Of a stretch of DNA of 35,761 nt, positions 3,001-19,027 are shown in pieces. Every line of letters starts with the position of its first letter. The stretch's first letter is position 1. A program made the translations under genes and the position numbers. Source of the DNA: Muribaculaceae bacterium (lineage in GTDB: Bacteria; Bacteroidota; Bacteroidia; Bacteroidales; Muribaculaceae); contig JAFQSX010000009.1 of NCBI GenBank assembly GCA_017409345.1, positions 1 to 35,761 on the forward strand. Direction: 5' to 3'. Below the pieces are notes generated by a model. It saw nothing but the letters and a program-made list of their open reading frames with translations, was not told the DNA's origin and searched no databases.

Positions 3001-4948
3001 TCTAAAACTAAATGGCACAGAAGTAACAAATCTTGTCATTCCAAATGATATTACCAAAATAAAACAATATGCGTTCGAAAATTGCCGCGGCTTGACCTCA
3101 GTAGCTATTCCCAATTCGGTAACCTCGATTGGCTACGATGCGTTCAGACGTTGCACCGGCTTGACAGAGATAACAATTCCCAATTCCGTTACCACGATTG
3201 GTTCGTCTGCGTTCTCAGGTTGCACCGGCTTGACTGAGGTGTCCATCCCAAACTCTGTAACCTCGATTGGCTCGTATACCTTCTCAGGTTGCAGCGGCTT
3301 GACAGAGATAACAATTCCCAATTCGGTAACCACGATTGGAGTATCTGCGTTCTCTGATTGCAGCGACTTGAAATCAGTAACTATCCCCAATTCCGTTACC
3401 GAGATTGGCGACAAAGCGTTCTATAATTGCACCGGCTTGAAATCAGTAACCATCCCCAATTCGGTAACCTCGATTGGCAGCAAAGCATTCTCAGGTTGTA
3501 TGTTGAATACTCTTGTTATTATGGAAGGGGTAAATCCAATTGCTATGGATGGTAATATATTCGCTGGTAGTTCTCTTACTTCGATATACATCGGTCGCAC
3601 TATGACAAATGTAACCTCTCCATTCAGTGGAATAACCTCGTTGTCAAAGGTTACATTGGGTCGTGGCATGACTTCATTGCAAAGTGATGCATTTGCAGGT
3701 TGTACAGGAATCAAAGAATTGGTAATCGAGGGAGGCGAAAGTGCAATCACAATAGATTGTAAATTCAACGACTCTCCAATAGAGAAATTGCACATTGGCC
3801 GTAATGGCACATACGCGTTCAACAATCGTGTTGACCTCAAGGAGGTATCAATAGGTGATAATGTTACATCACTACCTAACAATGCATTTAACGGTTGCTC
3901 TAATATCACATCATTGAAACTTGGAAACAAGTTGGAAACAATAGGCAACGGAGCATTTACCGGTTGTGCGACTTTGATGAATGTGTATTCTACTAATCTC
4001 ACACCTCCAACAGGTGTTGTGTTTGACAACAAGACCTATTTGCAAGGTACATTGTATGTGGTTAAAGGCAGTAAAGCTGCTTATGAAGCTGCCGATGGTT
4101 GGAAAGAATTCTGGGAAATCATTGACAACTTGCCATTTGAAGTAAATGGAATTTGGTATAACATTGATGAATATGGTAATACTAAAGCAGTGATGAATCC
4201 ATCGGGCGATGCTTATTCGGGTGCAATCAGCATTCCTGCAACAATTGAGTATGACGGAAAGGTATATCCTGTAACAGCAATTGATGCTGAAGCATTTGCA
4301 AATGCTATCAATGTAACATCAATCACTATTGAAGATAGCGATCTACCATTGACAATCGGTGCTTCAGCTACTGAGATTTCAGCAATGAGCAACGACAGCA
4401 CAAGCGTGTTTGGCGAATGTATGCTCGACTCGGTTTATGTGGGTCGCAACTTGAGTTACCAAGATGCACCATTTGCCAATATCTCTACATTGAAGAAAGT
4501 GACTCTTGGAAGCAAGGTAACGACAATGGGTGGCGCGATGTTTGCAGGCTGTGAAAACATTGAAATGGTATATGCTATGGGCACAACTCCTGCTACTGAA
4601 GCTGAGTTTGAATCAAAAGTTTATGACCATGCAACATTGGTGGTACCGGTTGGAACATTGAATGTTTACTCTGTAGCCGATGGTTGGAAAGAGTTTTTCA
4701 CTATTCAAGACGTTAACGGCAATGTTGGAGTTGAAGACATTGTGATTAATGGTGAGGATGGTAGCGAACCAACAATAATGGTGGAAAATGGCGAAATCGT
4801 TGTTAACGGTGATGAAGATGCACAAATCGCAGTTTACTCTATCAATGGTGGCCTCATCTATCAAGGTGTAAATCGTCCGGTGGCTGTTGCCAACAAGGGT
4901 GTTTATGTAGTAATTGTTAATGGTGTCGCAGTGAAAGTGATGTTGTGA
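2..4948 (+). CDS. BspA-like leucine-rich-repeat surface protein with T9SS-type C-terminal tail, 5' partial
   Basis: The reading frame is open through the left edge of the window, so the gene is 5' partial; the ATG at position 5 is internal, because the same T-F-M-Q-G-K context recurs three more times downstream. At least 1,647 residues are present. Nearly all of it is LRR_5 (BspA/TpLRR) repeats with a period of about 23 residues, of the form LTSVTIPNSVTTIG..AF.GC. They are interrupted near residues 715-800 and 1350-1420 by non-repeat linkers containing VNGIYYRI/VNGIWYNI-like segments. The last 70 or so residues (VENGEIVVNG...VYSINGG...GVYVVIVNG...VKVML) look like a type A sorting domain recognised by the type IX secretion system, so cell-surface export is inferred. 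BspA-family proteins bind host or microbial ligands; no ligand can be read from this sequence. The family call is firm, the role open. Confidence 0.93.
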   Translation, partial: FMQGKTSLKELTIGNTVTTIGANVFSGCSGLTSVTIPNSVTTIGANAFSGCTGLTEVNITDLSAWSKINFGNSDANPLNYAHHLKLNGTEVINLVIPNDITEIKQYAFFGCTGLTSVTIGNSVTTISDAAFSGCSSLAKLNIEDGVESISGLSFPDSPIDTLYLGRNTSDTFMQGKTSLKELTIGNTITTIGANAFSGCSSLAKLNIEDGTKSITGLSFPDSPIETLYLGRNTSDAFMQGKTSLKELTIGNSVTTIGTDAFQGCTGLTSVTIPNSVTEIGNSVFSGCSGLTELTIGNSVTTIGDAAFSGCSGLTEITIPNSVTTIGTGVFSGCSGLTSITIPNSVTQISDDVFSNCSSLTELTIPNSVTSIGNSAFSGCTGLTSVTIPNSVTTIGDRAFIGCTGLTSIIIPNSVTEIGDNAFFDCSGLTELIIEDGTETLTLGYNKSVLRDAGLFNDCPLEILYLGRNLSYNTGKDYGYSPFYNSYNVIKKVTIGSSVTSIGKDAFRSCSSLTKLKIEDGLEPISGLSFPDSYRLDTLYLGRNTSDAFMQGKTSLKELTIGNTVTTIAIGAFLGCTGLTSVTIGNSVTTIDYKAFSGCTGLTSVTIPNSVTAIGYEAFEYCSGLTSVTIPNSVTTIYTGAFSGCSGLTSITIPNSVTQICDDVFSNCSSLTELTIPNSVTSIGNSAFSGCTGLTSVTIPNSVTLIDYYAFSGCNKITVVNSHNTTAPTGAPFEDVVKQSAILNVPSSAIASYQSTEGWKDFANIREMAMNGNYDFEVDGIYYRIISLTDLTAEVVAKDDTYNSYSGEVVIPESVSYRNREFKVISIDAMTFSYCSELTSLTIPQTVTTVGKLALNGCTGLKSLIIADSNTDLVTNGSFDSLAYETLYLGRKASVDFKSLTDLKVITLAGGVTSINDSAFLGCTGLTSVTIGNSVSSISWYAFYGCTGLTSVTIGNSVTTIGDEAFRGCSSLTEVNISDLSAWCKINFNSYDANPLNYASHLKLNGTEVTNLVIPNDITKIKQYAFENCRGLTSVAIPNSVTSIGYDAFRRCTGLTEITIPNSVTTIGSSAFSGCTGLTEVSIPNSVTSIGSYTFSGCSGLTEITIPNSVTTIGVSAFSDCSDLKSVTIPNSVTEIGDKAFYNCTGLKSVTIPNSVTSIGSKAFSGCMLNTLVIMEGVNPIAMDGNIFAGSSLTSIYIGRTMTNVTSPFSGITSLSKVTLGRGMTSLQSDAFAGCTGIKELVIEGGESAITIDCKFNDSPIEKLHIGRNGTYAFNNRVDLKEVSIGDNVTSLPNNAFNGCSNITSLKLGNKLETIGNGAFTGCATLMNVYSTNLTPPTGVVFDNKTYLQGTLYVVKGSKAAYEAADGWKEFWEIIDNLPFEVNGIWYNIDEYGNTKAVMNPSGDAYSGAISIPATIEYDGKVYPVTAIDAEAFANAINVTSITIEDSDLPLTIGASATEISAMSNDSTSVFGECMLDSVYVGRNLSYQDAPFANISTLKKVTLGSKVTTMGGAMFAGCENIEMVYAMGTTPATEAEFESKVYDHATLVVPVGTLNVYSVADGWKEFFTIQDVNGNVGVEDIVINGEDGSEPTIMVENGEIVVNGDEDAQIAVYSINGGLIYQGVNRPVAVANKGVYVVIVNGVAVKVML
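988..1177 (+). repeat. 190-bp intragenic duplication, copy 1 (copy 2 at 1921-2110)
   Basis: Bases 988-1177 match 1921-2110 with a single visible difference, AGT versus TGT (Ser versus Cys in the Q-I-[S/C]-D-D-V-F segment). The copies are 933 bp (311 codons) apart, so the frame is preserved. Neighbouring LRR units differ from each other far more, so this is a recent in-frame segment copy. Confidence 0.92.
1921..2110 (+). repeat. 190-bp intragenic duplication, copy 2
   Basis: This is the partner of 988-1177, differing at one base. Together the copies could recombine to delete or expand 311 codons of the LRR array. Confidence 0.92.
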
Positions 4949-4980
4949 TAATTGCACACTAAGTAGAAATTTTTTATAGC

Positions 4981-5016
4981 AAGAGGCGTAACTTCGCAAG
5001 AGGTTGCGCCTCTTTT
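4981..5016 (+). terminator. Rho-independent terminator of the LRR gene
   Basis: AAGAGGCGTAAC (4981-4992) pairs with GTTGCGCCTCTT (5003-5014), a 12-bp stem with one G-U pair, followed by TTTT. It lies 32 bp after the TGA stop. Confidence 0.85.
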
Positions 5017-5035
5017 GACTTTATACCCCTAAGAA

Positions 5036-5094
5036 TTAGGCAGAATGATAGAATAAACAAAAGAAACCGGACACGGCACACTATGTCCCTACGG
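5036..5094. repeat. Dispersed extragenic repeat: inverted 'TTCATTCTGTCC' module plus REP-like palindrome
   Basis: In the 266-bp gap between the LRR gene and glnA, the segment 5036-5066 is the reverse complement of a module seen at 33051-33081 and 33703-33733 (core TTCATTCTGTCCTTCTGTC). It is followed at 5073-5094 by a degenerate GGACACGGC..ATGTCCCTAC palindrome, read in the same direction as the copies at 33089 and 33740. The two modules are therefore in a different relative orientation here than in the other copies. Confidence 0.6.
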
Positions 5095-5134
5095 CTCATC
5101 TTTCCTCTTTATCTTTCATTTTTCTACAATATTG

Positions 5135-7824: not shown

Positions 7825-10170
7825 TCAAAACTCCAACTTATTTTTTGATTCAGTACCGGTGTCGACTCCTTCGTTTTTCAACCCTTGTTTTGCTTTTTTA
7901 ATTGTTTTACCAAAATTCACCCGATAGGTAACACCGATTACCACCATATTTGCACCATCTTTTAAACAAAACTCATTATTTACCGGGTGTATTGTTGACA
8001 ATTCATTCGTTTTATACATTACTCCTTTATCACTAAATGGGTTAAATATTCCGGTAGTAAACCAAAAATCACGCCATTTATATTGCACCATAATCACATT
8101 ACATATTTCAGGTGTTTTCATTATATTCCCCGATAATGAATATCGTGGTTTAATATCAAACTGGCCGGTAAATCGCCAATTCTTTATAGCATATGATGCT
8201 TGAATACGTGTGTAGAAATTATCAAACGTCTCAATATCTCCAAATCCCGAAAATGTGTATCTATCCCAACCGGCAACACAATATATCATAAAGTTTTTGA
8301 TACCGGTATAACTCAAATGCAATTCGGCGTTCAGCAAGTCATCATGTTTAGCATTTTGACTCTGTTGCATAAACATATTGTAATATGGGTTTAACTCTTC
8401 TGAAATATATGTATATTGACTGTAAATTGGATCTATATCACGAGAATGAGCCAACCACAAACTTGCATTCACCTTTGGAGTGGCATATCTTAGATAGATG
8501 CGATTACGGAAATAGGTTGATGGTTTAAGGGTTGGATTGCCCATTTGATATAAAACATCATCAATACGTTTTACGATTTCACTTTGAGAAGACAACCCCG
8601 GCATTGACGGGTCAACCATAAACAAATAGTTCAAACTCCATTTTGAGTTAATCTTAAAATTAAGTGTCGCCTTACTATTGAACCGAAATGAGTTTTGTTC
8701 AACATTTCCATTATCAACATGATAATAACGTCCACCAAGTCCGGCACTATAGGTAAATTTCTTTATGCGTCCCGATATTGAGCCATATAAATAAAGATTA
8801 TCGTTATTTTGTTTTGAAATTTGAAATTTACCACCATTCAAAGCATATTGATTCTCTGCATAATTATGATAATAATTTACTCCATATTTTGTTTCAAAAC
8901 TACAATATGCTTTTGTATATAAAGCCTCCGTACCGGCACGCCAAGAAGAATTGTCGGCACTACTTGACTGTGAATAAATATTTGATGTTGAATTATATTC
9001 TAAATTGCTATTGCTTTCTCCACCTCGCATATTCCCATAAGCATTAAATTCTATTTTTGAGGTTTTATTTATGTGATGACGAAAATACAAATCCAAATTA
9101 GGAGAAAATCCTTTATCATTATCTATCAACACTGAGCTATATTCAGTAACGCGATTTCCCAGCGTTTGACGCACCGCATTATTTGTAGTTTGCTCACAAT
9201 TATCAATATTGTCCCTGAAAGTTACGGCAAACAATGTTGCCGGACTATGCATATATGTATATCCAACCGAAATACTATTTGACAATCTCTTTAATATTGA
9301 TGGCACTGGCAATGTTTCTCTTGTAATAGGTGTTTCTCTGCCAATAAACGACTCCGTACCCTCACTATACGCATCATCAAAATCACGCCAACGGTTTCCA
9401 TAGTCAATAGTCCATTCTGATTTACTATAATTATATGTCCCTCCTACATTAAAGTTCGTCAGCCCCCCTACTGCCGCCATACCATTTGCAATTACACTTC
9501 CACCTTTTGCGACCGGTTTTGTGATAAAATTTATCACACCCATCACCGATGTACCATATCTGATGTCCGATACATTTGAATATTCTATACGCAAAATATT
9601 GTCATTGTTTAACGACTGAATACGAGAGTAATCTACCTGACGACCATTTATTTGAAATATCGCAACTCCGTTTTCAATTGTCACTCGATTTAACGACGAG
9701 TTCACTTGCAATCCAGGAAGTTTATATTGCATCTGCTCCAATAAATCAATCGAAGTGCCTGATTGTTTGATTTCATCTGCCGTGGGGAACACAATATAAT
9801 TGCATCCCTTTTCAATTACATTTTGTGCCACTACTGTGATTTCGCCAAGCAATTCAGGAGCCTCAGCCAATGTTATCGCACCTAAATCTACATTTCGACC
9901 GACACTTTCAAATTTCACGTTTGAAGTCATTAAGCCCACCATCGACACTTCAACTCTCATATCTCCCTTTTGATTGGTTTCTAATAAGAATCTTCCATTA
10001 TCATCTGTCAATACACTCCCTATTGCAGTTATTGAGTCTTTATACAAAATCACACTTACTCCACTCAATAGTTCTTTTTCCGAATCAAGGACTTTTCCTG
10101 TAATTGTGTAAGCACACAAAAACTGAGGTACCAGCATCGACAAAACAAACATTAGAACATTAACTTTCAT
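7825..10170 (-). CDS. Outer-membrane beta-barrel family protein, TonB-receptor-like (barrel 1)
   Basis: The 781-residue protein begins with a Sec signal (VLMFVLSMLVPQFLCAY). A carboxypeptidase-regulatory-like domain follows, starting ITGKVLDSEKELLSGVSVILY. Next is a plug-like region at about residues 125-220 (LLEQMQYKLPGLQV, INGRQVDYSRIQ, GTSVMGVINFITKP), then a long barrel rich in alternating aromatic strands with an OMP_b-brl_3 look. A TonB box is not evident. Such proteins sit in the outer membrane and take up or bind large ligands. No SusD-type lipoprotein accompanies it. Its promoter carries a TAC(A/C)C-N4-GGGTA dyad shared with barrel 2 and the ThiF gene, and it is divergent from the LuxR-type regulator. 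Confidence 0.87.
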   Translation of the reverse strand: MKVNVLMFVLSMLVPQFLCAYTITGKVLDSEKELLSGVSVILYKDSITAIGSVLTDDNGRFLLETNQKGDMRVEVSMVGLMTSNVKFESVGRNVDLGAITLAEAPELLGEITVVAQNVIEKGCNYIVFPTADEIKQSGTSIDLLEQMQYKLPGLQVNSSLNRVTIENGVAIFQINGRQVDYSRIQSLNNDNILRIEYSNVSDIRYGTSVMGVINFITKPVAKGGSVIANGMAAVGGLTNFNVGGTYNYSKSEWTIDYGNRWRDFDDAYSEGTESFIGRETPITRETLPVPSILKRLSNSISVGYTYMHSPATLFAVTFRDNIDNCEQTTNNAVRQTLGNRVTEYSSVLIDNDKGFSPNLDLYFRHHINKTSKIEFNAYGNMRGGESNSNLEYNSTSNIYSQSSSADNSSWRAGTEALYTKAYCSFETKYGVNYYHNYAENQYALNGGKFQISKQNNDNLYLYGSISGRIKKFTYSAGLGGRYYHVDNGNVEQNSFRFNSKATLNFKINSKWSLNYLFMVDPSMPGLSSQSEIVKRIDDVLYQMGNPTLKPSTYFRNRIYLRYATPKVNASLWLAHSRDIDPIYSQYTYISEELNPYYNMFMQQSQNAKHDDLLNAELHLSYTGIKNFMIYCVAGWDRYTFSGFGDIETFDNFYTRIQASYAIKNWRFTGQFDIKPRYSLSGNIMKTPEICNVIMVQYKWRDFWFTTGIFNPFSDKGVMYKTNELSTIHPVNNEFCLKDGANMVVIGVTYRVNFGKTIKKAKQGLKNEGVDTGTESKNKLEF

Positions 10171-10211
10171 ATTTTATCAAATTAAATGAGTTTAACTTAT
10201 TATTTCTGATG

Positions 10212-10256
10212 TAAAATTACCATAACAGCATCTCTGCCACAATACACAAAAGGGTA
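10212..10256 (-). promoter_or_regulatory. Barrel-1 promoter with conserved dyad operator
   Basis: On the minus strand a TAATTTTA -7-like box (plus 10212-10219) lies exactly 31 bp, first base to first base, from TACACAAAAGGGTA (10243-10256), a one-mismatch version of TACCC-N4-GGGTA. The intervening bases also resemble those at 14693-14737 (AAAATTACC, AAC, CATCTC). The dyad overlaps where a -33 box would sit, which suits an activator site. Confidence 0.6.
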
Positions 10257-10365
10257 AAAGTACCGAATCTGCCAATTTTACTTACCCAAAGCAAATGCAC
10301 CCAAAGCAGCCCATGCCGCAAATGGCATCAATCAAAATTACAAAACATTAATTTACAACCACTTA

Positions 10366-10412
10366 CCCCCCCCTATAAAGTTTGTTTTTTTGCAATAAAA
10401 TCTTTACCTTTG
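10366..10412 (+). promoter_or_regulatory. Promoter of the LuxR-type regulator, with C8 tract just upstream
   Basis: A TTTG -33 box (10381-10384), a 20-bp spacer and a TACCTTTG -7 box (10405-10412) match the Bacteroidetes consensus on both elements. A run of eight C at 10366-10373 lies 7 bp upstream of the -33 box. The predicted transcription start near 10419 rules out translation from upstream in-frame starts and supports the ATG at 10436. Confidence 0.75.
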
Positions 10413-10435
10413 CAGTAAATAAACCTGAAAGGATT

Positions 10436-11197
10436 ATGGCAAAAATTGACGATTTCTTTATCCCTGATAATTCTGTTGCAATCATTTCTGACGCTTCTTA
10501 TGAGGGGATTCAACATACTATTGATGAGATAGAAGCTTTTTCACGATTAACATATAAGAGTGTTTATATCATCGATTATTATAAACGCAACTTCCTCTTT
10601 GTCGCTAAAAATCCGTTGTTTTTATGTGGGCATACTCCCGAAGAAGTAACAGAACTTGGATATAATTTCTACATTGAGAATGTTCCACCCGAAGACCTAA
10701 AATTCCTACTTGAAATAAATGTCAAAGGATTTGAATTCCTGAAAGAGATTCCCGCCAAAGAGAAAAAAGAATATACCATATCATACTGCTTTAACATTAT
10801 CAACAAACAATCAAAAAAGAAACAGCTAATAAATCACCAAATTACCCCATTACGATTAACGAAATCGGGAGAAATTTGGTTAGCGTTGTGCGTAGCATCA
10901 ATTCCATCAAATGGCACTGTTGGAGAAATCATAATGTCAAGGAATGGAGCTAACACCCAATGGAGATATAGCCGAGAAGGGAAACGATGGAAAGAAGAAC
11001 CTCGCTTTGAATTAAACGAAAATGAGCTTAACGTTCTGAAGTTCTCAGCAATGGGTTACACCATGAATGAAATCGCCGAGTTGGTGCATCGTTCTTTCGA
11101 CACCGTTAAAGTATATCGAAAAAATATATTTGAAAAACTTGGCGCCGAGAACATCAGTGAGGCGATAAATATCGCAATGAATTATCGTCTGATTTAG
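10436..11197 (+). CDS. LuxR-type helix-turn-helix transcriptional regulator with PAS-like N-terminal domain
   Basis: The product is 253 residues from ATG 10436. The reading frame continues upstream to 10382, but that segment contains the promoter. The C-terminal 60 residues form a GerE/LuxR HTH: ELNENELNVLKFSAMGYTMNEIAELV, then RSFDTVKVYRKNIFEKL and ENISEAINIA. The N-terminal part (to about residue 175) resembles a PAS-type sensor fold, with HTPEEVTELGYNFY and PPEDLKFLLEI segments. No receiver aspartate pocket is apparent. It lies between the two barrel genes and points opposite to them, so it is the natural candidate to bind the TACCC-N4-GGGTA dyads of the three neighbouring promoters. That link is inference. 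Confidence 0.85.
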   Translation: MAKIDDFFIPDNSVAIISDASYEGIQHTIDEIEAFSRLTYKSVYIIDYYKRNFLFVAKNPLFLCGHTPEEVTELGYNFYIENVPPEDLKFLLEINVKGFEFLKEIPAKEKKEYTISYCFNIINKQSKKKQLINHQITPLRLTKSGEIWLALCVASIPSNGTVGEIIMSRNGANTQWRYSREGKRWKEEPRFELNENELNVLKFSAMGYTMNEIAELVHRSFDTVKVYRKNIFEKLGAENISEAINIAMNYRLI

Positions 11198-11224
11198 GCT
11201 CAATTAACTAACAAATAAAACCTT

Positions 11225-11261
11225 GAGAAGTGCCAACATTATGATTTTTTTGACACTTCTC
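11225..11261. terminator. Bidirectional terminator hairpin between the regulator and barrel 2
   Basis: GAGAAGTG (11225-11232) pairs with CACTTCTC (11254-11261). T-rich sequence follows on both strands, and the hairpin lies between the convergent ends at 11197 and 11269. Confidence 0.7.
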
Positions 11262-11268
11262 CATTGTT

Positions 11269-13599
11269 TTAATGCTCTTCATTTGTTCGGTTTAAGATAT
11301 TATCATTATTGCTTCTTTTCTTAAACGGATTATTTATCATATTGAATGTGTAGCGAGCCATTATCGTAACTCCTCGAGTATCATTTATATTGTGATTATA
11401 AATATATGTATTATGATAACGGTTCTCACTCCATTTTGCCATACTTCTTCGCAATAAATCATTAGCAGTTACTCCAACTAACAACTTACCTTTACACAAG
11501 ATTGTCATAGCACTTAAATCAATCGTTGCTGTTGGAGCCATTACATAATAACCTTCATTTGATTTTGAATTATATCCAAATTTAGTGCCTAACATATATT
11601 TATTAGCGATAGTAAATTCCAAGTTTGCATATACACTCCATCTCAAATCATTTACTTTTATTGTCTCATTCAAATATGGATATAAGATATTTGGTATTTT
11701 CGCATCAGCATGAAGTCCCATATTAAACCAATTTTTTTGATAAAAATAATCTGCAGATATTGACCAAATCTGTGAACGATCAATGTTAATAGGTTTCTCA
11801 ACAATATTATTTCCCTCATTTAAATATACTGTAGTTATTTTATCTGTAATATTCCGATATGCCAATTCTAAATTTACCCCAAATAGATTTGCACTAAGAT
11901 TAATGCGGTCAGTGAACGAAGGTTTTAGCAATGGGTTACCTGTAGAATATTCATTTTCGTTTATATAATAAATCGTAGGTCGCAATTGCGAATAAGTAGG
12001 GCGTGCAATTGTTCTTCTATAATACAATGTGAGATTTACATTTTTATTGAACTTATATCCAAAACTTATATTAGGCAAGAGGTTGGAATATGATTTTGAG
12101 AAATCATCAGTCTGTTCTCTATTGTCAAATATTTTCACATCAGTATAGTCATATTCATAGCGAAGGCCCCCTTTTAGCGTAAATTTATTCCATTTGCGTG
12201 AAAATGTATAATAAAACGAAGCATATCCATTATCTCGTTCGCTGTTTTGAATGTCATTATTCATAATAACATCTCCACTATTATTTACATAACCGGCATT
12301 TGCTCCGATATTGCTTTTCAGTTTTCCTGATGTGAAATTATAGTCTGCCGACAATGTGTATATATCATAATCATTAATATTCTTTATTGCATTATTTATG
12401 CTATTTCCTGTTTGCAAATTTATTTCTTCAATATCCTTATAATCATTATGAACTGTTGTAGCATAGTCTGCGACGATCAGCAAATTAGATGTTTTGTTTC
12501 TGGTCCATTGATAACTTGCAGAAACACTATGACGATCATTATTATAATCCATTGACGCAGGATTATTGTATAAATAATTCATTCCATTAAAGATGTTTAA
12601 TATATTGTCATTATTCATATCCGTTCTATAGAAAACTCCATTATATTGCAGGCCTAACACACTTTTTCTATTTAGAGCATAATTCACACCTGCAAATAAA
12701 TTCCAGTTATGAACTCTTGCCGAATAATTAGTAGTGTCAAACTTTTCATATATTCCATTCTCTTTGGTAATTATAGTATGACTATCATTATAGCCCTCTG
12801 TATTTCCCAATGTGTAACTTAATGAAACATTTCCTGACAAATTACCATTCTTACCATCTACTGTAAAATTTGTAGTATTGCTCACTCTTTGCTTTATATC
12901 AACAGCATCTAACAAACTAGCAGCAAGATAATCTTTTATAGGTTTCTTTGTGTAAATTTTTATTACACTTTCGGTTTGAGAACTGTACTTTGCATCTGGT
13001 TCTCGTATGATTTCAATTTTGCTCACATTGCTTGGGCTTAATGCTCTCAATTCTGAATTATTCATTACCTTTTTATCGTTTATGTATATTTCAGAAGAAC
13101 CTTTCCCTATCACAGAAATGACATCATTGTTATCAACTATAACTCCAGGTGTCCAACGCAACATATCAATACCATTCCCGGCATTTCCCATGATTGTTCC
13201 TGATAAACTGCGAATGGTATAATCTGCTCCATCATGTTCAACGCTAAGTTTAGGTGCTCTTACCACAACTTCATCTAACATATGTGACTTGAGCTCTAAT
13301 TGAATATTTCCCAAATCTAATACTGAAGCACTATCCACTTTATTAAATCGTTTTGTATATTCACTATAACCCGCAGAACTGACATTTACCAAAATTCCGC
13401 CCTCAATATTCCCAATATTTACCTCAAACTCATTTTCATATCCACAAAACTGCATAGCAGAACATTTTAACGAGTCGTCAGGAATAACCGAAACATTGTA
13501 TATCAAATCGGCATTTTTATTAAAATTACCCTTTATCACTGTCGCTGACATATTAAGAGCCAACAACCCACAAGCAACAATCAATAAGTCTTTTTTCAT
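11269..13599 (-). CDS. Outer-membrane beta-barrel family protein, TonB-receptor-like (barrel 2)
   Basis: The 776-residue protein has a short signal peptide (LLIVACGLLALNMSATV). A beta-sandwich-like N-terminal region to about residue 100 replaces a clear carboxypeptidase-regulatory motif. A plug-like domain follows (LDEVVVRAPKLSV, GIDMLRWTPGVIVDNND, IYINDKKVMNNSELRAL, IEIIREPDAKYSS), then a barrel with many Asn/Tyr-rich strands. It resembles the OMP_b-brl family and barrel 1 in architecture but not closely in sequence. The outer membrane is the expected location; the substrate is unknown. Its promoter contains two copies of the TACCC-N4-GGGTA dyad. It may form a functional set with barrel 1 and the ThiF-like protein. 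Confidence 0.86.
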   Translation of the reverse strand: MKKDLLIVACGLLALNMSATVIKGNFNKNADLIYNVSVIPDDSLKCSAMQFCGYENEFEVNIGNIEGGILVNVSSAGYSEYTKRFNKVDSASVLDLGNIQLELKSHMLDEVVVRAPKLSVEHDGADYTIRSLSGTIMGNAGNGIDMLRWTPGVIVDNNDVISVIGKGSSEIYINDKKVMNNSELRALSPSNVSKIEIIREPDAKYSSQTESVIKIYTKKPIKDYLAASLLDAVDIKQRVSNTTNFTVDGKNGNLSGNVSLSYTLGNTEGYNDSHTIITKENGIYEKFDTTNYSARVHNWNLFAGVNYALNRKSVLGLQYNGVFYRTDMNNDNILNIFNGMNYLYNNPASMDYNNDRHSVSASYQWTRNKTSNLLIVADYATTVHNDYKDIEEINLQTGNSINNAIKNINDYDIYTLSADYNFTSGKLKSNIGANAGYVNNSGDVIMNNDIQNSERDNGYASFYYTFSRKWNKFTLKGGLRYEYDYTDVKIFDNREQTDDFSKSYSNLLPNISFGYKFNKNVNLTLYYRRTIARPTYSQLRPTIYYINENEYSTGNPLLKPSFTDRINLSANLFGVNLELAYRNITDKITTVYLNEGNNIVEKPINIDRSQIWSISADYFYQKNWFNMGLHADAKIPNILYPYLNETIKVNDLRWSVYANLEFTIANKYMLGTKFGYNSKSNEGYYVMAPTATIDLSAMTILCKGKLLVGVTANDLLRRSMAKWSENRYHNTYIYNHNINDTRGVTIMARYTFNMINNPFKKRSNNDNILNRTNEEH

Positions 13600-13625
13600 A
13601 ATTTTATTTTTAATGATTTATAATG

Positions 13626-13709
13626 CAAAGTTATATGGATAAAGAGTGTCTTTATATACCCAAATGGGTATTACCCATTAAACTTTAAATTATTACCCTT
13701 TTGGGTAAT
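13626..13709 (-). promoter_or_regulatory. Barrel-2 promoter with two dyad operators
   Basis: The minus-strand -7 box TAACTTTG (plus 13626-13633) lies 31 bp, first base to first base, from the perfect dyad TACCCAAATGGGTA (13657-13670). A second, longer dyad ATTACCCTTTTGGGTAAT (13692-13709) is centred 37 bp further upstream. The same spacing is found at 10212/10243 and 14693/14724. Confidence 0.68.
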
Positions 13710-13712
13710 TTA

Positions 13713-13906
13713 GGGGAACTTCTATAAATTGCTTTGTGGAGATTTATGAATTTTATTTGAGCAGATTTTTGTTTTTGTTGAATGAGCATAGCGAGCTATG
13801 CGATTGAAACAAAGGCAAAAAGATGCCAAAGAAAAGCATAAAGCACACAAAAGAAGTTCTCATCAACTAATGTTAAATTCATTCGTGGAATTTATAGAAA
13901 TACCCT
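13713..13906. mobile_element. MITE-like palindromic element, about 194 bp, no coding capacity
   Basis: This fills most of the 324-bp gap between barrel 2 and the ThiF gene. The ends form imperfect terminal inverted repeats: left GGGGAACTTCTATAAATT, and the right end read in reverse GGGTATTTCTATAAATT, each followed by an ATGAATTT block. The centre has a perfect GCATAGC-GA-GCTATGC hairpin (13786-13801) flanked by T-rich and A-rich arms that extend the pairing. No transposase is encoded. The element abuts the upstream dyad of barrel 2. A MITE is the best reading, but a structured RNA cannot be excluded. Confidence 0.5.
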
Positions 13907-13923
13907 TAATCATGTGCATAATA

Positions 13924-14679
13924 TCACCTTTTTGCTGTTAAGAAATAAAATTGAGGAATTTTTTTATAGTCTTTTTCTGTTGCAATATCAAATAGCAAAT
14001 TGGCAACTAACCCTCCAACAATCCATGATGCCACCGATAGTTGAGGCAAATTTAAGTTATCTGAACCTTTTTCAAATTGATTTATCATATCTTCCAACCA
14101 TATCTGTGGAGCTCCCCAATAGCGAAAGTAATCAGCAATATATTTGGAGAATCCAACTCTATCTTTTCCCAAATTTTCATTCTCCCTCAAGTCTTTTAAT
14201 CGGTCATTTGACAATTTGGCAATAGTAGCCAGACCGGCCCAACCCAAATTATAGGGTCGAATTATAGGGATATCCATTTTTTTACTACATTGATTAAACA
14301 TCTCCGAGAGATGAGAGGATGGTTCAAGCGAATCTACTACAATACCATGTTCAGAAATTATCTCATATAAATCTTTTAATTCTAAATCTGAATTAATTAT
14401 CTTTATTCTCGCTGAAGTATTTATTTTCTCCAACCTGCTTTTAAGAGATTCAATCTTCAATCTCCCAACATCTCTCTCTTCATAATTTTGCCAACATAAG
14501 TCTGATGTATCCACTACACCACTATCAATGAGTGTAATTGTTTCAAATCCCAAACGCAATGCACACTCGGCAATCACACTCCCCAATCCTGCTCCGACAA
14601 ATAAAACTTTTGTCTGTTTTACCTTTTGTTGTTCTTCGAGTGTAATGTAAAATCTGTTCCTTTGATAACGTTCTTCCAT
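13924..14679 (-). CDS. ThiF/MoeB/E1-like adenylyltransferase family protein
   Basis: The 251-residue protein has a Rossmann nucleotide-binding motif GAGLGS at 29-34, an acidic strand end IDSG (Asp52), the ERDVGRLKIESL segment with Lys75, and VVDSLEPSS with Asp116. These match the ATP-binding core of ThiF/MoeB enzymes, which adenylylate the C-terminus of a ubiquitin-like or peptide substrate. The usual NLxRQ is replaced by SDLCWQ (59-64), losing the conserved Asn and Arg, and no CxxC zinc pairs or clear catalytic cysteine motif are visible. Activity may therefore be altered or lost. No ThiS/MoaD-like partner is encoded nearby. The promoter is of the same type as those of the two barrel genes. 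Confidence 0.8.
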   Translation of the reverse strand: MEERYQRNRFYITLEEQQKVKQTKVLFVGAGLGSVIAECALRLGFETITLIDSGVVDTSDLCWQNYEERDVGRLKIESLKSRLEKINTSARIKIINSDLELKDLYEIISEHGIVVDSLEPSSHLSEMFNQCSKKMDIPIIRPYNLGWAGLATIAKLSNDRLKDLRENENLGKDRVGFSKYIADYFRYWGAPQIWLEDMINQFEKGSDNLNLPQLSVASWIVGGLVANLLFDIATEKDYKKIPQFYFLTAKR

Positions 14680-14692
14680 ATTATTTTTTGCA

Positions 14693-14737
14693 CAAAATTA
14701 CCCCAACGCCATCTCCCTCAAAATACCCAAAAGGGTA
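14693..14737 (-). promoter_or_regulatory. ThiF-gene promoter with conserved dyad operator
   Basis: The minus-strand -7 box TAATTTTG (plus 14693-14700) lies 31 bp, first base to first base, from the perfect dyad TACCCAAAAGGGTA (14724-14737). The predicted leader is very short (under 10 nt). The whole segment resembles the barrel-1 promoter at 10212-10256. Confidence 0.65.
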
Positions 14738-14760
14738 ATTCTAACAATTATTTTCATATT

Positions 14761-14794
14761 AAAAGAGGCTGCGTCTGAATCCAGACACAACCTC
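14761..14794 (-). terminator. Terminator of the pRiA4b-ORF3-like gene
   Basis: On the minus strand GAGGTTGTGTCTG pairs with CAGACGCAGCCTC, with two mismatched or wobble positions, and is followed by TTTT. It lies 27 bp after the stop of the minus-strand gene. Confidence 0.75.
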
Positions 14795-14821
14795 CATTTG
14801 CATTACATATCGTTATCAAGT

Positions 14822-15769
14822 TTAGTATTTCGTTGTCATTATTGCTTCCTCCCAAATATCATCAAGAAGGTCTTGATGATATTCTATATTAAATTCATTT
14901 GAATCATAGTCGAGGTCCATGCAATACCATTCCAAGCGCTCTTTATCATCTTTTGATTTGCGTTTCTTTTTGAGAATCTCTAACAGTTCGGCATATCCCC
15001 ACACTCCACCACAATCTTCGGGTGGGCACTCGCCAACACCCTTTACCACTTTTAGGCAAGGTTGCTCACCGGGCTCATATTCTCTAATACATTTTAACCA
15101 CACTTCATGTTCCCAACCATCGCCAAAGTCATATTCATATTTTATGCGATCTTTTTTCTCTCGCAACAAAAAACTGATGGGATATTTATTTGCATCTAAT
15201 GCCATCACTGATTGAAATGAGCCAAACAGTTCCCCATCTTGTTTTATACATACTGTATTTTTGAAATTAGCTGTTTTAGTTTTAAACTGATGCAGATGTA
15301 TATTATCCCAACCCATTACATCATTTACCACAAATGCGAATAACTCCAAGGTAATATTTGACGGAACTTTTACTTCCCGCCACACCGGAACAGGAGAATC
15401 TTTCAATTTTATTCTCACATGATATTCCTTTGGCTTATCCCCAATAAAACAATTTTCGGGAAACGCAAACGGATCGTCTTCATCAGAATAGTCATCTTCA
15501 AGACCTTCTGAACCGGCAAATTTCATCATTTGCGCCAACCCTTTCATAGGGTTATCATCGTCAAATGCTATTTCCTCCATCGATGGCATTGGAGCATCTT
15601 TCCCATTCTTTTCGTAATAATCATTGACTTTGTCAAAATCAATTCCCATCATAGCCGATAATCCTAACATATCTTCAAATGAAGATATTCCAAAACTATC
15701 AAGCACTTGTTGCTTTCTTGCCTGCAACTGTTCATAAAATATTACAAAATCGTAAGACGCTTCTTCCAC
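14822..15769 (-). CDS. Plasmid pRiA4b ORF-3 family protein, start uncertain, possibly 5'-truncated
   Basis: Up to 315 residues. The C-terminal two-thirds match the pRiA4b ORF-3 family: YHVRIKLKDSPVPVWREV, then FAFVVNDVMGWDNIHLHQF, YEYDFGDGWEHEVWL and CPPEDCGGVWGYAELLEIL. The N-terminal part is a charged helical region (LQARKQQVLDSFG, then SSFEDMLGL). Biochemical function is unknown in the family, whose members are frequent on plasmids and islands. The only start in this frame before an upstream TGA is a GTG at 15767-15769, which lies inside the 36-bp copy of the glnA 3' end, so the first eight or nine residues are antisense glnA sequence. The next ATG is at 15670 (residue 34). The original 5' end was probably lost at this junction. 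Confidence 0.8.
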   Translation of the reverse strand: MEEASYDFVIFYEQLQARKQQVLDSFGISSFEDMLGLSAMMGIDFDKVNDYYEKNGKDAPMPSMEEIAFDDDNPMKGLAQMMKFAGSEGLEDDYSDEDDPFAFPENCFIGDKPKEYHVRIKLKDSPVPVWREVKVPSNITLELFAFVVNDVMGWDNIHLHQFKTKTANFKNTVCIKQDGELFGSFQSVMALDANKYPISFLLREKKDRIKYEYDFGDGWEHEVWLKCIREYEPGEQPCLKVVKGVGECPPEDCGGVWGYAELLEILKKKRKSKDDKERLEWYCMDLDYDSNEFNIEYHQDLLDDIWEEAIMTTKY

Positions 15770-15780
15770 TGCGGATAATC
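15745..15780 (+). repeat. 36-bp direct repeat of the glnA 3' end (att-like, right copy)
   Basis: Identical to 6684-6719. It is followed by diverged glnA-downstream sequence and terminator copy C, then by the peptidase gene, which is the arrangement expected of the original glnA downstream flank. It marks the right edge of the 9-kb accessory block. Confidence 0.9.
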
Positions 15781-15803
15781 AACATCTCACAACTCTATAC
15801 AAC

Positions 15804-15838
15804 AAGGGAGCCCCAATCAAGGCTCCCTTTGATATTAT
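15804..15838. terminator. Terminator copy C, between the repeat and the peptidase gene
   Basis: AAGGGAGCC (15804-15812) pairs with GGCTCCCTT (15821-15829), followed by TGATATTATTT. It was probably the ancestral glnA terminator, facing the convergent minus-strand peptidase gene. Confidence 0.82.
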
Positions 15839-15849
15839 TTATTCGTCTT

Positions 15850-17892
15850 TTATTTCACAATTCTATCTACGGCATTGAGGATTGGGTCGGTGCTTACGCT
15901 TGCACCTACGGCTTGTTGCATCCAATGGTTAGGTGTCAAGCGACCGAGTTTGTAGATACGCATCAATTCGTCGGCAAAGGCTTTCTTGTCGGTGAATTTT
16001 GCGAGATGTTCTTCGAGCTGGAATTCCACAATGTGTCCCAATGGGTAATAAGGGAGATACATAGGCGAATTTACCATGTGAGAATACACTGCCAAGATGG
16101 GTGAATCTTTCTCACCAAGCACAGGTTGATAATATTTGTTCCACACCTCTTTGGCTATTGTGATAGTGGCATCACGAAGTTCGGCAGCTGAGGCTTGAGG
16201 GTGAGCATATAGCCATTGCCACACACGCATATCAACCAACGACACACCCATTATCTCATACAATCCCCAGAAAATATCAAGCGTGGTGTTGTCATCGATT
16301 TGTTGGTCATATCCGAGCAATTTGAGGTCACGTTTTTGGAACACGAAAGCCAACGCTTCGGTAAATCCGGTGTTAGGCACTCCTGCCATCATAAAATGGT
16401 CGATGAGATATAAGTCGATAGTTTGCTCCACGTTGTGACCAAACTCATGTACGGCGATATTATATCCCTTATAGTCCATTCCTTCACTTCCTATGCGAGT
16501 GCGAAGAAGCGAATTTTCCCAACGACCGGCGGCACCCCATGCGTGACCCGAACCACGAGCACCTTGCACCTTTATTTTACTTGCGATAAATTGCGCATCA
16601 GCGTCAGAGAAGCCCAACTCTACAAGCATACGAGGCATATCTGCTTCAAACGCTTCGGGAGTAGGATATTTAGCTTGTGTTTGCGCTGTGAGATCATCTT
16701 CCGAAATTGCGCTACGGCTCTTAAATCCGTCATACCAAATATCGTAAGGACGAAGGTCGCGACCGAGGCGTTTTTTAATCAATTTACCCACTTTCTTGGC
16801 TTGTGGCGACGAAATAAGATTCACAAACAATGCCTCAATCTCTTCGGGGGCAATCTCCATTCCGCTCTCAAAGTTTCGGGCAATTCCGGTGGGGCGTTGT
16901 GGCTCATACTCGTCAACTTTGAGCATTGTTTTATAGTGAGCCAATATGCGTTCATATCGGCGAGTATCCTCGGCTGCCAAAGTCACCTCTGCTCCATCTT
17001 TCCATGTGAGGTTGCTATAAGGAGCCCAATCATATGCGCCATTGTTTATCACCTCTAACGGAATTGTTCCGTCAATGATACGCAACATCACTTGATATAT
17101 CATCTCTTGTTTCTCGCGAGCATTAGGCAAGTTGGCATAGTTTGATTTTATCTCGTCGCGGAGGTTCCAGTGCGAAAGCAACACCATATTTTCGGGGAAC
17201 AATTTATTACCTTTCTTGTCGAGGAGATGTCCCATCATGATGTTATACGATGCGATATAATTCTCAGCATCGGCATTGGCTTGCGCAGTCTCTTTGTTTA
17301 ATGCTGCAGGCACTCGCGAAGTGAACATATCGCCCATGCGAGCATAAGCCCATTGTTCACGGCTCCAATTCCCGCCCATTTCATTCTTTTCTTGAAGCGT
17401 GAAATTAGGGAAGTTGAGAATGGTGATAAAAGCCACCTTGTTTTCATAAAGGTCATTCCACAAATGCGAGTATGGATTAAACGCACTCATGATATAATCG
17501 ATATTTGTAGGCTCGGGGCCTGCCAAAATCGTTGGCAAACTCAATTCGATTGCCACTTGGTTTTGTGTGCCGAGCAACACCTCGTAGGCAGTGCTTAATT
17601 TGTCAAACAATTCACGACGAGCCTCTGGCGATGCGGCATAGTTATCTTTCACAAACTGCACAAACTCATCGGCCGTACCATCTTCGGCTTGCCAAAGGGC
17701 TGCTACTTGCGATGCACCACGTTGCAACAATTTGCCATCAATCGACGCATCATCAGCAGTCATCTGCCCCACCAATTCAGTCACTACGGCATCATCAATC
17801 ACCTTTGCCTCCAGATTATTCACTCCTACTATCATCATAATCGCTAAAACAATAAATTTAATCGTTCTCATCATATCGTTTTGTTTATTCAT
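15850..17892 (-). CDS. Secreted HExxH zinc metallopeptidase-like protein
   Basis: The product is up to 680 residues with an N-terminal signal (IKFIVLAIMMIVGVNNLEA). The zinc motif HEFGHNVEQ lies near residue 482, with a downstream GFTEALAFVF at about 509-518 supplying a probable third zinc ligand. This is a gluzincin (MA clan) layout as in M3-type oligopeptidases. Zinc-dependent peptide cleavage in the periplasm or at the surface is inferred; the substrate is unknown. A minus-strand promoter (-7 at 17903-17910) predicts a start of transcription close to the first ATG, so translation from Met7 or Met8 is possible. It is convergent with the duplicated glnA tail and divergent from the aldolase-like gene. 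Confidence 0.82.
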   Translation of the reverse strand: MNKQNDMMRTIKFIVLAIMMIVGVNNLEAKVIDDAVVTELVGQMTADDASIDGKLLQRGASQVAALWQAEDGTADEFVQFVKDNYAASPEARRELFDKLSTAYEVLLGTQNQVAIELSLPTILAGPEPTNIDYIMSAFNPYSHLWNDLYENKVAFITILNFPNFTLQEKNEMGGNWSREQWAYARMGDMFTSRVPAALNKETAQANADAENYIASYNIMMGHLLDKKGNKLFPENMVLLSHWNLRDEIKSNYANLPNAREKQEMIYQVMLRIIDGTIPLEVINNGAYDWAPYSNLTWKDGAEVTLAAEDTRRYERILAHYKTMLKVDEYEPQRPTGIARNFESGMEIAPEEIEALFVNLISSPQAKKVGKLIKKRLGRDLRPYDIWYDGFKSRSAISEDDLTAQTQAKYPTPEAFEADMPRMLVELGFSDADAQFIASKIKVQGARGSGHAWGAAGRWENSLLRTRIGSEGMDYKGYNIAVHEFGHNVEQTIDLYLIDHFMMAGVPNTGFTEALAFVFQKRDLKLLGYDQQIDDNTTLDIFWGLYEIMGVSLVDMRVWQWLYAHPQASAAELRDATITIAKEVWNKYYQPVLGEKDSPILAVYSHMVNSPMYLPYYPLGHIVEFQLEEHLAKFTDKKAFADELMRIYKLGRLTPNHWMQQAVGASVSTDPILNAVDRIVK

Positions 17893-17902
17893 TTCTAATC
17901 CT

Positions 17903-17979
17903 CAAAATTAGCAATAATTTCCGTTATTGCAAAAAGAGCGAAATTTCATATATTTTATTAATTCGTTTTTATATCTTTG
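17903..17979. promoter_or_regulatory. Divergent promoter pair for the peptidase and the aldolase-like gene
   Basis: On the minus strand, TAATTTTG (plus 17903-17910) has a TTTG -33 box (plus 17930-17933) with a 19-bp spacer. On the plus strand, TATCTTTG (17972-17979) lies 22 bp before the ATG at 18002. Confidence 0.65.
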
Positions 17980-18001
17980 TGTTATCAAATGATTATATAT
18001 T

Positions 18002-19027
18002 ATGATATACTTCGATTCTGATTATATGGCAGGGGCTCACCCCGAAGTGTTGCAACGACTCATCGACACAAATCTTGAACATACCGTGGGATATGGTTGC
18101 GACCAATATACCGAACAAGCCATCAACCACATTCGCGAGGCATGTGATTCACCTAAAGCCCAAGTATTTTTTATGGTTGGCGGCACACAAACCAATGCCA
18201 CCATCATTGATGGCATTTTGGCTCGACACGAAGGAGTATTGGCCCCCGAAAGCGCACATATCAATGTACACGAAGCCGGAGCCATTGAAGCCACCGGCCA
18301 CAAGGTACTCACCCTTCCCCAACACGAAGGTAAGGTGTGGGCCGATGAAGTGGAGCACTACATTGAAGAATTTTATCGCGATGAAACATTTTTACACATG
18401 GTCGCTCCCGGAATGTTGTATATCTCATTTCCCACCGAATATGGCACAGTATATACACTTTCTGAACTTGAAGCATTGAGCCAAGTGTGTCATGACGCAC
18501 AAATACCCCTCTATATTGATGGTGCACGATTGGGCTACGGACTTGCCGCCAAAGAAGGGAATGTTACACTCAAAGATATTGCACGATTGGCCGATGTATT
18601 TTATATCGGAGGCACAAAAATGGGAACATTGATGGGTGAAGCAGTAGTTGTAACCAATCCCGCATTGCTCAAAAACATGACTCCACTCATGAAACAACAT
18701 GGGGCATTGCTCGCCAAAGGCCGACTATTGGGAGTGCAGTTTGCCACTCTTTTTTCTAACGATTTATACCTAAACATTGGACGATATGCCGTAGAGTTAG
18801 CCATTACTCTCAAGAACGAATTCTTTGCCCGAGGATATGACATCGTTGTTGACTCCCCTACCAATCAGCAATTCTTCCGACTCCCTAACGATCTCATTGA
18901 CCAATTAAAACAACACGCAAGTTTTGAATTATGGGGACCTCCAGGCAAAACCCACTCTATCGTCCGCTTCGTCACCTCCTGGTCCACAACCTACAACGAC
19001 ATCAACCGGCTTATTGAATTGATATAA
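18002..19027 (+). CDS. Threonine-aldolase-like PLP-dependent (beta-eliminating lyase family) enzyme
   Basis: The 341-residue cytoplasmic protein is of fold-type I. The start (YFDSDYMAGAHPEVLQRL) and FFMVGGTQTNATIIDGIL (about 57-74) match the low-specificity threonine aldolase family. PLP contacts include LYIDGARLGYGLA, and the Schiff-base lysine is in IGGTKMGTLMGEA near residue 202. These enzymes split threonine or allo-threonine to glycine and acetaldehyde. It is shorter and more diverged than typical LtaE, so the substrate could be a different beta-hydroxy amino acid. It is monocistronic, with a promoter at 17972 and a hairpin downstream. Confidence 0.85.
   Translation: MIYFDSDYMAGAHPEVLQRLIDTNLEHTVGYGCDQYTEQAINHIREACDSPKAQVFFMVGGTQTNATIIDGILARHEGVLAPESAHINVHEAGAIEATGHKVLTLPQHEGKVWADEVEHYIEEFYRDETFLHMVAPGMLYISFPTEYGTVYTLSELEALSQVCHDAQIPLYIDGARLGYGLAAKEGNVTLKDIARLADVFYIGGTKMGTLMGEAVVVTNPALLKNMTPLMKQHGALLAKGRLLGVQFATLFSNDLYLNIGRYAVELAITLKNEFFARGYDIVVDSPTNQQFFRLPNDLIDQLKQHASFELWGPPGKTHSIVRFVTSWSTTYNDINRLIELI

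Follow-up and report, generated by a model that had tools for sequence, protein, structure and literature searches.

A phased palindrome as the predicted operator of a LuxR-type regulator in a Muribaculaceae locus

Introduction

Which protein reads the palindrome that precedes two outer-membrane barrel genes and a ThiF gene in a Muribaculaceae bacterium, and what circuit do these genes serve? The question is raised by a 35,761-nucleotide stretch of DNA (assembly GCA_017409345.1, contig JAFQSX010000009.1, positions 1 to 35,761), which is called the window here. Three promoters in the window carry a dyad at a fixed distance from the -7 box, and a LuxR-type regulator is encoded between them. We believe, with a probability of about 0.75, that the dyad is the operator of this adjacent, candidate PAS-LuxR regulator, that the regulator acts by class II activation, and that the window holds a receptor-only derivative of the N-acyl-cyclolysine (ACL) circuit.

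Results and discussion

The dyad stands in fixed phase with the -7 box

The -7 consensus was taken as TAnnTTTG and the dyad as TACCC-N4-GGGTA (14 bp), and the gap was counted from the end of the dyad to the first base of the box. The promoter elements and the genes beside them are listed below.

10243-10256, minus strand: predicted operator dyad of barrel 1, imperfect, TACCCTTTTGTGTA (on its own strand TACCC-TTTT-GTGTA, one mismatch)
10212-10219, minus strand: -7 box TAATTTTA of barrel 1, one mismatch (last base A, not G)
7825-10170, minus strand: barrel 1, outer-membrane beta-barrel protein with a CarboxypepD_reg domain, 781 amino acids (domain search)
13692-13709, core 13694-13707, no strand assigned: second, upstream dyad of barrel 2, an extended palindrome 37 bp from the proximal dyad
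13657-13670, minus strand: predicted proximal operator dyad of barrel 2, exact, TACCCATTTGGGTA
13626-13633, minus strand: -7 box TAACTTTG of barrel 2, exact TAnnTTTG
11269-13599, minus strand: barrel 2, outer-membrane beta-barrel protein OMP_b-brl_3, 776 amino acids (domain search)
14724-14737, minus strand: predicted operator dyad of the ThiF gene, exact, TACCCTTTTGGGTA
14693-14700, minus strand: -7 box TAATTTTG of the ThiF gene, exact TAnnTTTG, 23 bp after the dyad
13924-14679, minus strand: ThiF/AclA homologue, 251 amino acids, likely a pseudo-enzyme
10436-11197, plus strand: LuxR-type regulator, 253 amino acids, candidate AclR-like receptor/activator
10381-10412, plus strand: the regulator's own promoter, TTTG-N20-TACCTTTG, with no close phased dyad
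10364-10377, minus strand: weak dyad-like G-tract stretch, two mismatches, 23 bp before TAATTTTG at 10333-10340

At barrel 1, barrel 2 and the ThiF gene alike, the dyad and the box are 31 bp apart, first base to first base (gap 23). The box and dyad positions and the common offset given in a preliminary description of the locus were all borne out on re-check. The same description had all three promoters share the dyad; this stood for barrel 2 and ThiF, where the dyad is exact, and had to be amended for barrel 1, whose dyad and box each deviate at one base. The 14 bases of the barrel 1 dyad also form phased sites in two other loci (L249 and L250). The extra copy reported upstream of barrel 2 is present, and the regulator's promoter is, as described, a standard -33/-7 pair without a phased dyad. 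The upstream dyad of barrel 2 might also have served a divergent promoter, but the relaxed criterion gave no phased -7 box on the plus strand.

The palindrome alone is not enriched. The exact dyad occurs at three sites in the 2.09-Mb genome, against four for the reversed pattern, and with at most one mismatch the counts are 26 and 61. In the window, at most two mismatches gave 11 sites against a shuffle mean of 6.3, which is weakly high (3 of 100 shuffles reach 11). All three exact copies lie at the window locus, within 1.1 kb. The relaxed search of the window gave four sites at gap 23, including the G-tract stretch at 10364, which matches poorly; none of the 51 remaining gaps between 9 and 60 had more than one site. 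At 37 loci, all of them with regulator homologues (the window, six of 80 named loci and 30 fetched later), the relaxed criterion gave 68 sites at gap 23, where shuffled sequence would give 0.4. The signal thus resides in clustering and phase. Random positions genome-wide would have spoken against a regulatory role for the dyad; the search gave no such scatter, the exact copies being confined to the window locus and the phase recurring near regulator homologues.

The phased dyad follows the regulator across relatives

Homologues of the regulator were found in six genomes, G003 (100% identical), G008 (75%) and G016, G019, G021 and G024 (46-48%). The dyad (at most one mismatch) and the 23-bp gap are kept in five of the six, judged on the neighbouring promoters at hand; the exception is G021, where the regulator stands at the end of its contig and the search gave no dyad. 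Across 397 genomes of the family, TACMC-N4-GGGTA-N23-TAnnTTTG occurs at 120 sites in 65 genomes and the reversed pattern twice (control columns read by eye). A homologue was called close at 387 bits or more, the split from distant ones being drawn by eye among the matches listed. Among the 51 genomes in which a close homologue occurs, 42 have a phased site, as do 23 of the 346 others (Fisher 3.6e-31; kinship was not corrected for). For 69 of the 120 sites, a close homologue is encoded no more than 6 kb away. Among the 80 named loci (781 kb), 40 have an exact phased site and 19 more have a gap-23 site that deviates from the pattern at one or two bases. The phased dyad follows regulator homologues across the family and the phylum, which agrees with the earlier naming of the regulator as the obvious candidate reader. 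This class of promoter is not a local oddity and seems to belong to a signalling circuit found throughout the phylum.

Two side observations concern these loci. Those labelled L114, L140 and L145 are titled Oscillospiraceae, Staphylococcus and Saccharibacteria, yet are of Bacteroidota type; they probably come from mis-binned or misnamed metagenome-assembled genomes (MAGs). Over 7825-19027, the regulator and ThiF proteins of the window are 100% identical to those of L035 (G003:C9) and the surrounding proteins 96-99%, while the 341-residue protein at 18002-19027 is 85% identical to its counterpart. The module is thus found in another species-level genome, by recent exchange or by strong conservation.

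Promoter geometry points to an activator site

When any gap from 9 to 37 bp was allowed in the 51 regulator-bearing genomes, 50 of 56 matches fell at 23; the other six fell at 19 (three), 30, 31 and 37. Gaps to a TAnnTTTG within 70 bp in the 80 named loci were 23 in 68 cases, 60-62 in 20 cases, which belong to a more distant second dyad, and 19, 28 or 40 in four. The window and its relatives hold 73 pairs of neighbouring dyads with a spacing of 14-60 bp. The commonest spacing is 38 bp (46 pairs), followed by 39 bp (11) and 37 bp (6); the window pair has 37. Gap 26 was considered as a second spacing (16 matches in the 37 loci) and rejected. Its boxes all read CACTTTTG or TACTTTTG with a G after them, and we take them to be part of the neighbouring dyad in a tandem pair, so no second spacing remains.

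The preliminary description had let the dyad take the place of the -33 box. This did not hold. The window and its relatives together provide 98 distinct phased sites. In most of them the next three bases 3' of the dyad are T (86), G or T (69 and 17) and G (87), and they occupy the place of a TTG with a 20-bp spacer to the -7 box. The dyad therefore abuts the -33 position instead of replacing it. In the window, barrel 1 has a TTG at spacer 20 and ThiF at spacer 18; no TTG was found at the -33 position of barrel 2. The feature tested, an activator site beside a core promoter at fixed spacing, was found at gap 23. From the fixed gap, the dimer palindrome and the weak -33 we infer a class II activator site. 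A regulator dimer on the dyad, centred 30 bp upstream of the -7 box and abutting the -33 place, would recruit RNA polymerase, and the second dyad 37-38 bp further out would take a second dimer.

The same regulator might repress from this site, a dimer beside the -33 blocking polymerase until the ligand releases it. The dyad does lie directly beside the -33, most sites in relatives keep the T, G/T, G, and the ThiF and barrel 1 promoters of the window have a TTG at spacers 18 and 20. We nevertheless consider repression unlikely, because it does not need a gap held at 23 bp over a whole phylum and because barrel 2 has no TTG at -33. LuxR-type receptors and PAS-LuxR regulators are mostly activators, and those of the PimM type are listed as such.

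The window resembles an ACL circuit without its synthase

Many regulator homologues have two enzyme genes in their neighbourhood, one for a FeeM-type N-acyl amino acid synthase and one for a ThiF, and each of these often has a phased dyad of its own in front. The window regulator is homologous to the regulators beside FeeM and AclA-like ThiF and 60% identical to that of locus L220. In the regulator tree, the window pairs with L099 (Shimodaira-Hasegawa-like approximate likelihood ratio test, SH-aLRT, 96), followed by L220 (89; long branch). The tree was made without L169 (stops in translation), L098, L110 and L112, and A1 was built without L039. The ACL signalling system of Bacteroidota is a known circuit, according to excerpts of PMC13419125. 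The regulator may be the receptor of this circuit or closely akin to it. Complete loci comprise the regulator, a FeeM-type N-acyltransferase and an AclA-type ThiF cyclase, often with outer-membrane barrels, and the phased operators on FeeM and ThiF genes in relatives are suggestive of autoinduction. Such complete FeeM/ThiF circuits exist in the window's own family, and in three genomes (G197, G347 and G192) one occurs together with a close relative of the solo receptors.

The closest solved structure to the window ThiF is AclA of Tenacibaculum discolor (PDB 9egb; 40% identity over 245 residues). The protein keeps fold and length and lacks the adenylation motifs, with SDLCWQ for SNLNRQ and DSLEP for NALDF. 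We take the Arg of NLNRQ and the Asp of NALDF to be adenylation residues, with roles as in MoeB/ThiF. Both motifs are intact in all 16 ThiF proteins that have FeeM in the locus. Among five ThiFs without a full FeeM, those of the window, L099 and L156 have lost both motifs; those of L245 and of L220, whose locus holds a FeeM fragment, keep them. In L168 the FeeM reads with stops near its start. A half-ThiF without a full ThiF was seen in 38 of 107 tree rows (tblastn), with lengths of 171-192 residues and one of 127 among the matches listed. In the related enzyme TrzS, the adenylation-motif Asp is required, according to excerpts of PMC12856293. An oxazolone synthesis function for FeeM and ThiF, first drawn from PMC10404671 and PMC12856293, was dropped because the closest solved ThiF is AclA.

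FeeM was not found by two profiles in the window genome (G000), G003 or G008, and four control genomes outside the profile-building set gave matches. It is present in 3 of the 51 genomes with a close regulator homologue. The Pfam FeeM model, which is weak for this subfamily (L170 falls under its cut-off), gave no match in 16 genomes, and profile A4 found no FeeM in 13 of these 16 (all but G042, G202 and G222). A search of 295 genomes of the order at E 1e-15, a cut too strict for remnants, also gave none. G454, which holds a FeeM fragment at 2.6e-13, seems to be among these 295; this fragment lies below the cut, so 0 of 295 is not readable as absence from the order. Upstream of the window regulator no FeeM remnant was found. 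The stretch at 10364-10377, where relatives have the FeeM promoter, may be the ghost of a lost FeeM promoter or chance.

Synteny, the absence of FeeM from the assembly and the motif loss are read from the sequences, and with no FeeM and no ThiF motifs the window copy probably makes no ACL. Most likely it is a synthase-less, receptor-only derivative of the ACL circuit. In it FeeM would be gone, ThiF would have lost its adenylation residues yet remain under the operator, and the output would be the two outer-membrane barrels. The ligand would then be an ACL-like signal from an outside source. The simplest reading of the order of events is that FeeM was lost and ThiF then decayed, with receptor, operators and barrels kept.

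It is quite unlikely that the circuit in the window is complete, with a ThiF that is active despite its changed residues and a FeeM located elsewhere (unassembled or diverged). An assembly that is 75% complete leaves room for this, the ThiF gene keeps its phased promoter along with fold and length, and L245 offers an intact ThiF without FeeM in its assembly. The two profiles, however, found FeeM in none of G000, G003 and G008, with matches in four control genomes, and the motifs that are intact in every ThiF of a FeeM locus are both lost in the window and in L099.

The neighbouring regulator is the likely reader of the dyad

A GerE/LuxR helix-turn-helix (HTH) lies at residues 195-247 of the regulator (PF00196, 41.3 bits, cut-off 23.5). 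Pfam calls the HTH only, and the structure model (predicted local distance difference test, pLDDT, 91) shows an N-terminal domain as well, which may have the PAS fold. The best structural match is 3clo, a LuxR-type regulator of B. thetaiotaomicron. Against the quorum-sensing receptor VqmA, 168-181 residues are aligned, covering parts of both domains.

Chryseobacterium luteum and some gut lineages have TACAC-N4-GTGTA in place of the window palindrome, still at 23 bp, and both phased TACAC-GTGTA sites of the C. luteum genome (at most one mismatch) lie at the regulator locus. Within the GGGTA group, regulators that have K at one recognition-helix position are paired with TACCC in 23 of 26 rows, and those that have Q there with TACAC in 13 of 13 (39 rows; rows with both half-site types or with other residues were left out). 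Because the palindrome changes while the gap stays, and because of linkage and co-occurrence, the neighbouring regulator is the likely reader. As far as sequence can tell, the dyad is most likely the docking site of this adjoining LuxR-type regulator.

Several points weigh against the reading as a whole. The exact phased pattern is missing from nine of the 51 regulator-bearing genomes. It occurs in 23 genomes that have no close homologue; 12 of these 23 belong to genus g33, and 11 of the 12 have a more distant homologue among the matches listed. No phased dyad at up to two mismatches was found in 21 of the 80 named loci, and none in 2 of 18 phylum-sample loci. The FeeM-bearing loci L132, L153, L168 and L170 have no phased dyad before ThiF under the relaxed criterion, L170 showing a weaker one. 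The K/Q covariation was rejected as proof of contact (two independent changes, sign test p 0.5), and with so few changes the pairing is suggestive. The absence of FeeM from the window genome is soft because of its 75% completeness, though G003 (92%) and G008 (90%) also lack it. Activation rather than repression is inferred from geometry only.

It is very improbable that another, global transcription factor reads the dyad and that the neighbouring regulator is a coincidence. Such a factor would account for the 23 of 65 phased-site genomes that have no close homologue, at least 12 of which remain when a distant one is counted. The strong association in the Fisher test, the close linkage to the regulator and the position of both C. 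luteum sites at its locus speak for the regulator instead, as does the coincidence of half-site and recognition-helix changes, albeit in few independent events. A chance palindrome beside AT-rich -7 boxes can be dismissed, since, although the exact dyad is no more frequent than the reversed pattern in the genome, the phase statistics and the co-occurrence with regulator homologues rule it out.

Genes behind the phased promoters

The regulon was assembled from 101 phased sites in the window and the 80 named loci under the relaxed criterion, with proteins of at least 50 residues grouped into loose single-linkage clusters (DUF6624 and esterase named by Pfam, porin by eye). Downstream stand 33 outer-membrane barrels, 31 ThiF homologues, 7 members of the DUF6624 family, 5 esterases, 4 porin-like proteins, two pairs and 12 singletons. 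The output of the window is two barrels and the ThiF homologue.

Further sites were noticed. On the FeeM contig of G197, two dyads in tandem stand with a phased -7 box at 936-986 of L242, roughly 7 kb away from the regulator; as they lie outside the FeeM locus, the complete circuit may have further targets. In the Paraprevotella MAG L170, a phased dyad (one mismatch) at 5124 precedes a sugar-nucleotide epimerase-like gene (4101-5078), and two further phased sites lie elsewhere in that genome. GG-type short peptides are encoded beside the FeeM/ThiF/regulator circuits of C. luteum (L153, 1-2652) and an Arachidicoccus MAG (L168, 7782-9836), next to a C39-type transporter or peptidase and, in L153, also a radical-SAM maturase (by eye). 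They are possibly a peptide product under the circuit. In the window itself, a large protein has an internal repeat: between 954 and 3466, inside its open reading frame of 1647 amino acids, TTCCCAATTCGGTA is found, exactly or nearly so, at positions 954, 3108, 3315 and 3453.

Significance

A circuit of receptor, ThiF and FeeM is of an already known kind, and the ACL operator may already be described in the primary ACL literature. What our sequence comparison appears to add is the operator geometry, its co-change with the receptor, and candidate receptor-only derivatives with decayed ThiF in gut Muribaculaceae. We tentatively suggest, as a possibility that we still doubt, that gut Muribaculaceae hold large families of solo AclR-type receptors that hear the ACLs of others, with ThiF now a non-catalytic signal-binding partner. 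ThiF would have stayed under the receptor's operator while losing first the adenylation residues (window, L099, L156) and then the adenylation half (the half-ThiFs of many loci). If this is true, the gut microbiota would offer a case in which a signal synthase has evolved to become an accessory of the receptor.

The 45-bp signature of dyad, 23 bp and -7 box can yield candidate circuit targets from raw genomes and MAGs without expression data, and predicts receptor-responsive promoters, possible sender species and listen-only species. The paired receptor and operator variants (TACCC and TACAC half-sites) could serve in building orthogonal sensors.

Comparison with known systems

Linares-Otoya et al. 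2025 (Nature 646:423) reportedly described the ACL signalling system with AclA and AclR. As in that system, an AclA-like ThiF and a LuxR-type regulator, and in relatives a FeeM-type acyltransferase, share one locus; outer-membrane genes are co-located, and phased operators on the biosynthetic genes fit autoinduction. The window differs in that no FeeM was found for it and its ThiF lacks the adenylation motifs; it keeps the receptor, a putative pseudo-AclA and the targets.

The oxazolone pathways OxzA/OxzB, TyzA/TyzB and TrzA/TrzS also join a FeeM-like acyltransferase to a ThiF, according to excerpts of PMC10404671 and PMC12856293. In these excerpts an amino acid is N-acylated and then cyclised by ThiF with ATP, as in the ACL type of circuit, whereas the product class and the bacteria are others and flavin oxidases are included. 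LuxR is mentioned in neither paper.

Among regulators, the protein 3clo (NP_811094.1 of Bacteroides thetaiotaomicron) shares 19% identity with the window regulator in structural alignment; the title of its entry names no function. VqmA of Vibrio cholerae (PDB 6ide, 6kju and 6ugl, the last bound to its autoinducer 3,5-dimethylpyrazin-2-ol, DPO) shares 14-15%, with a root-mean-square deviation of 12.8-14.3 over both domains, whose orientation differs. The PimM-type PAS-LuxR regulators of Streptomyces combine a PAS domain with a C-terminal LuxR HTH, an arrangement that the window regulator may share, and activate co-located clusters; they belong to another phylum and have other targets than the window regulator.

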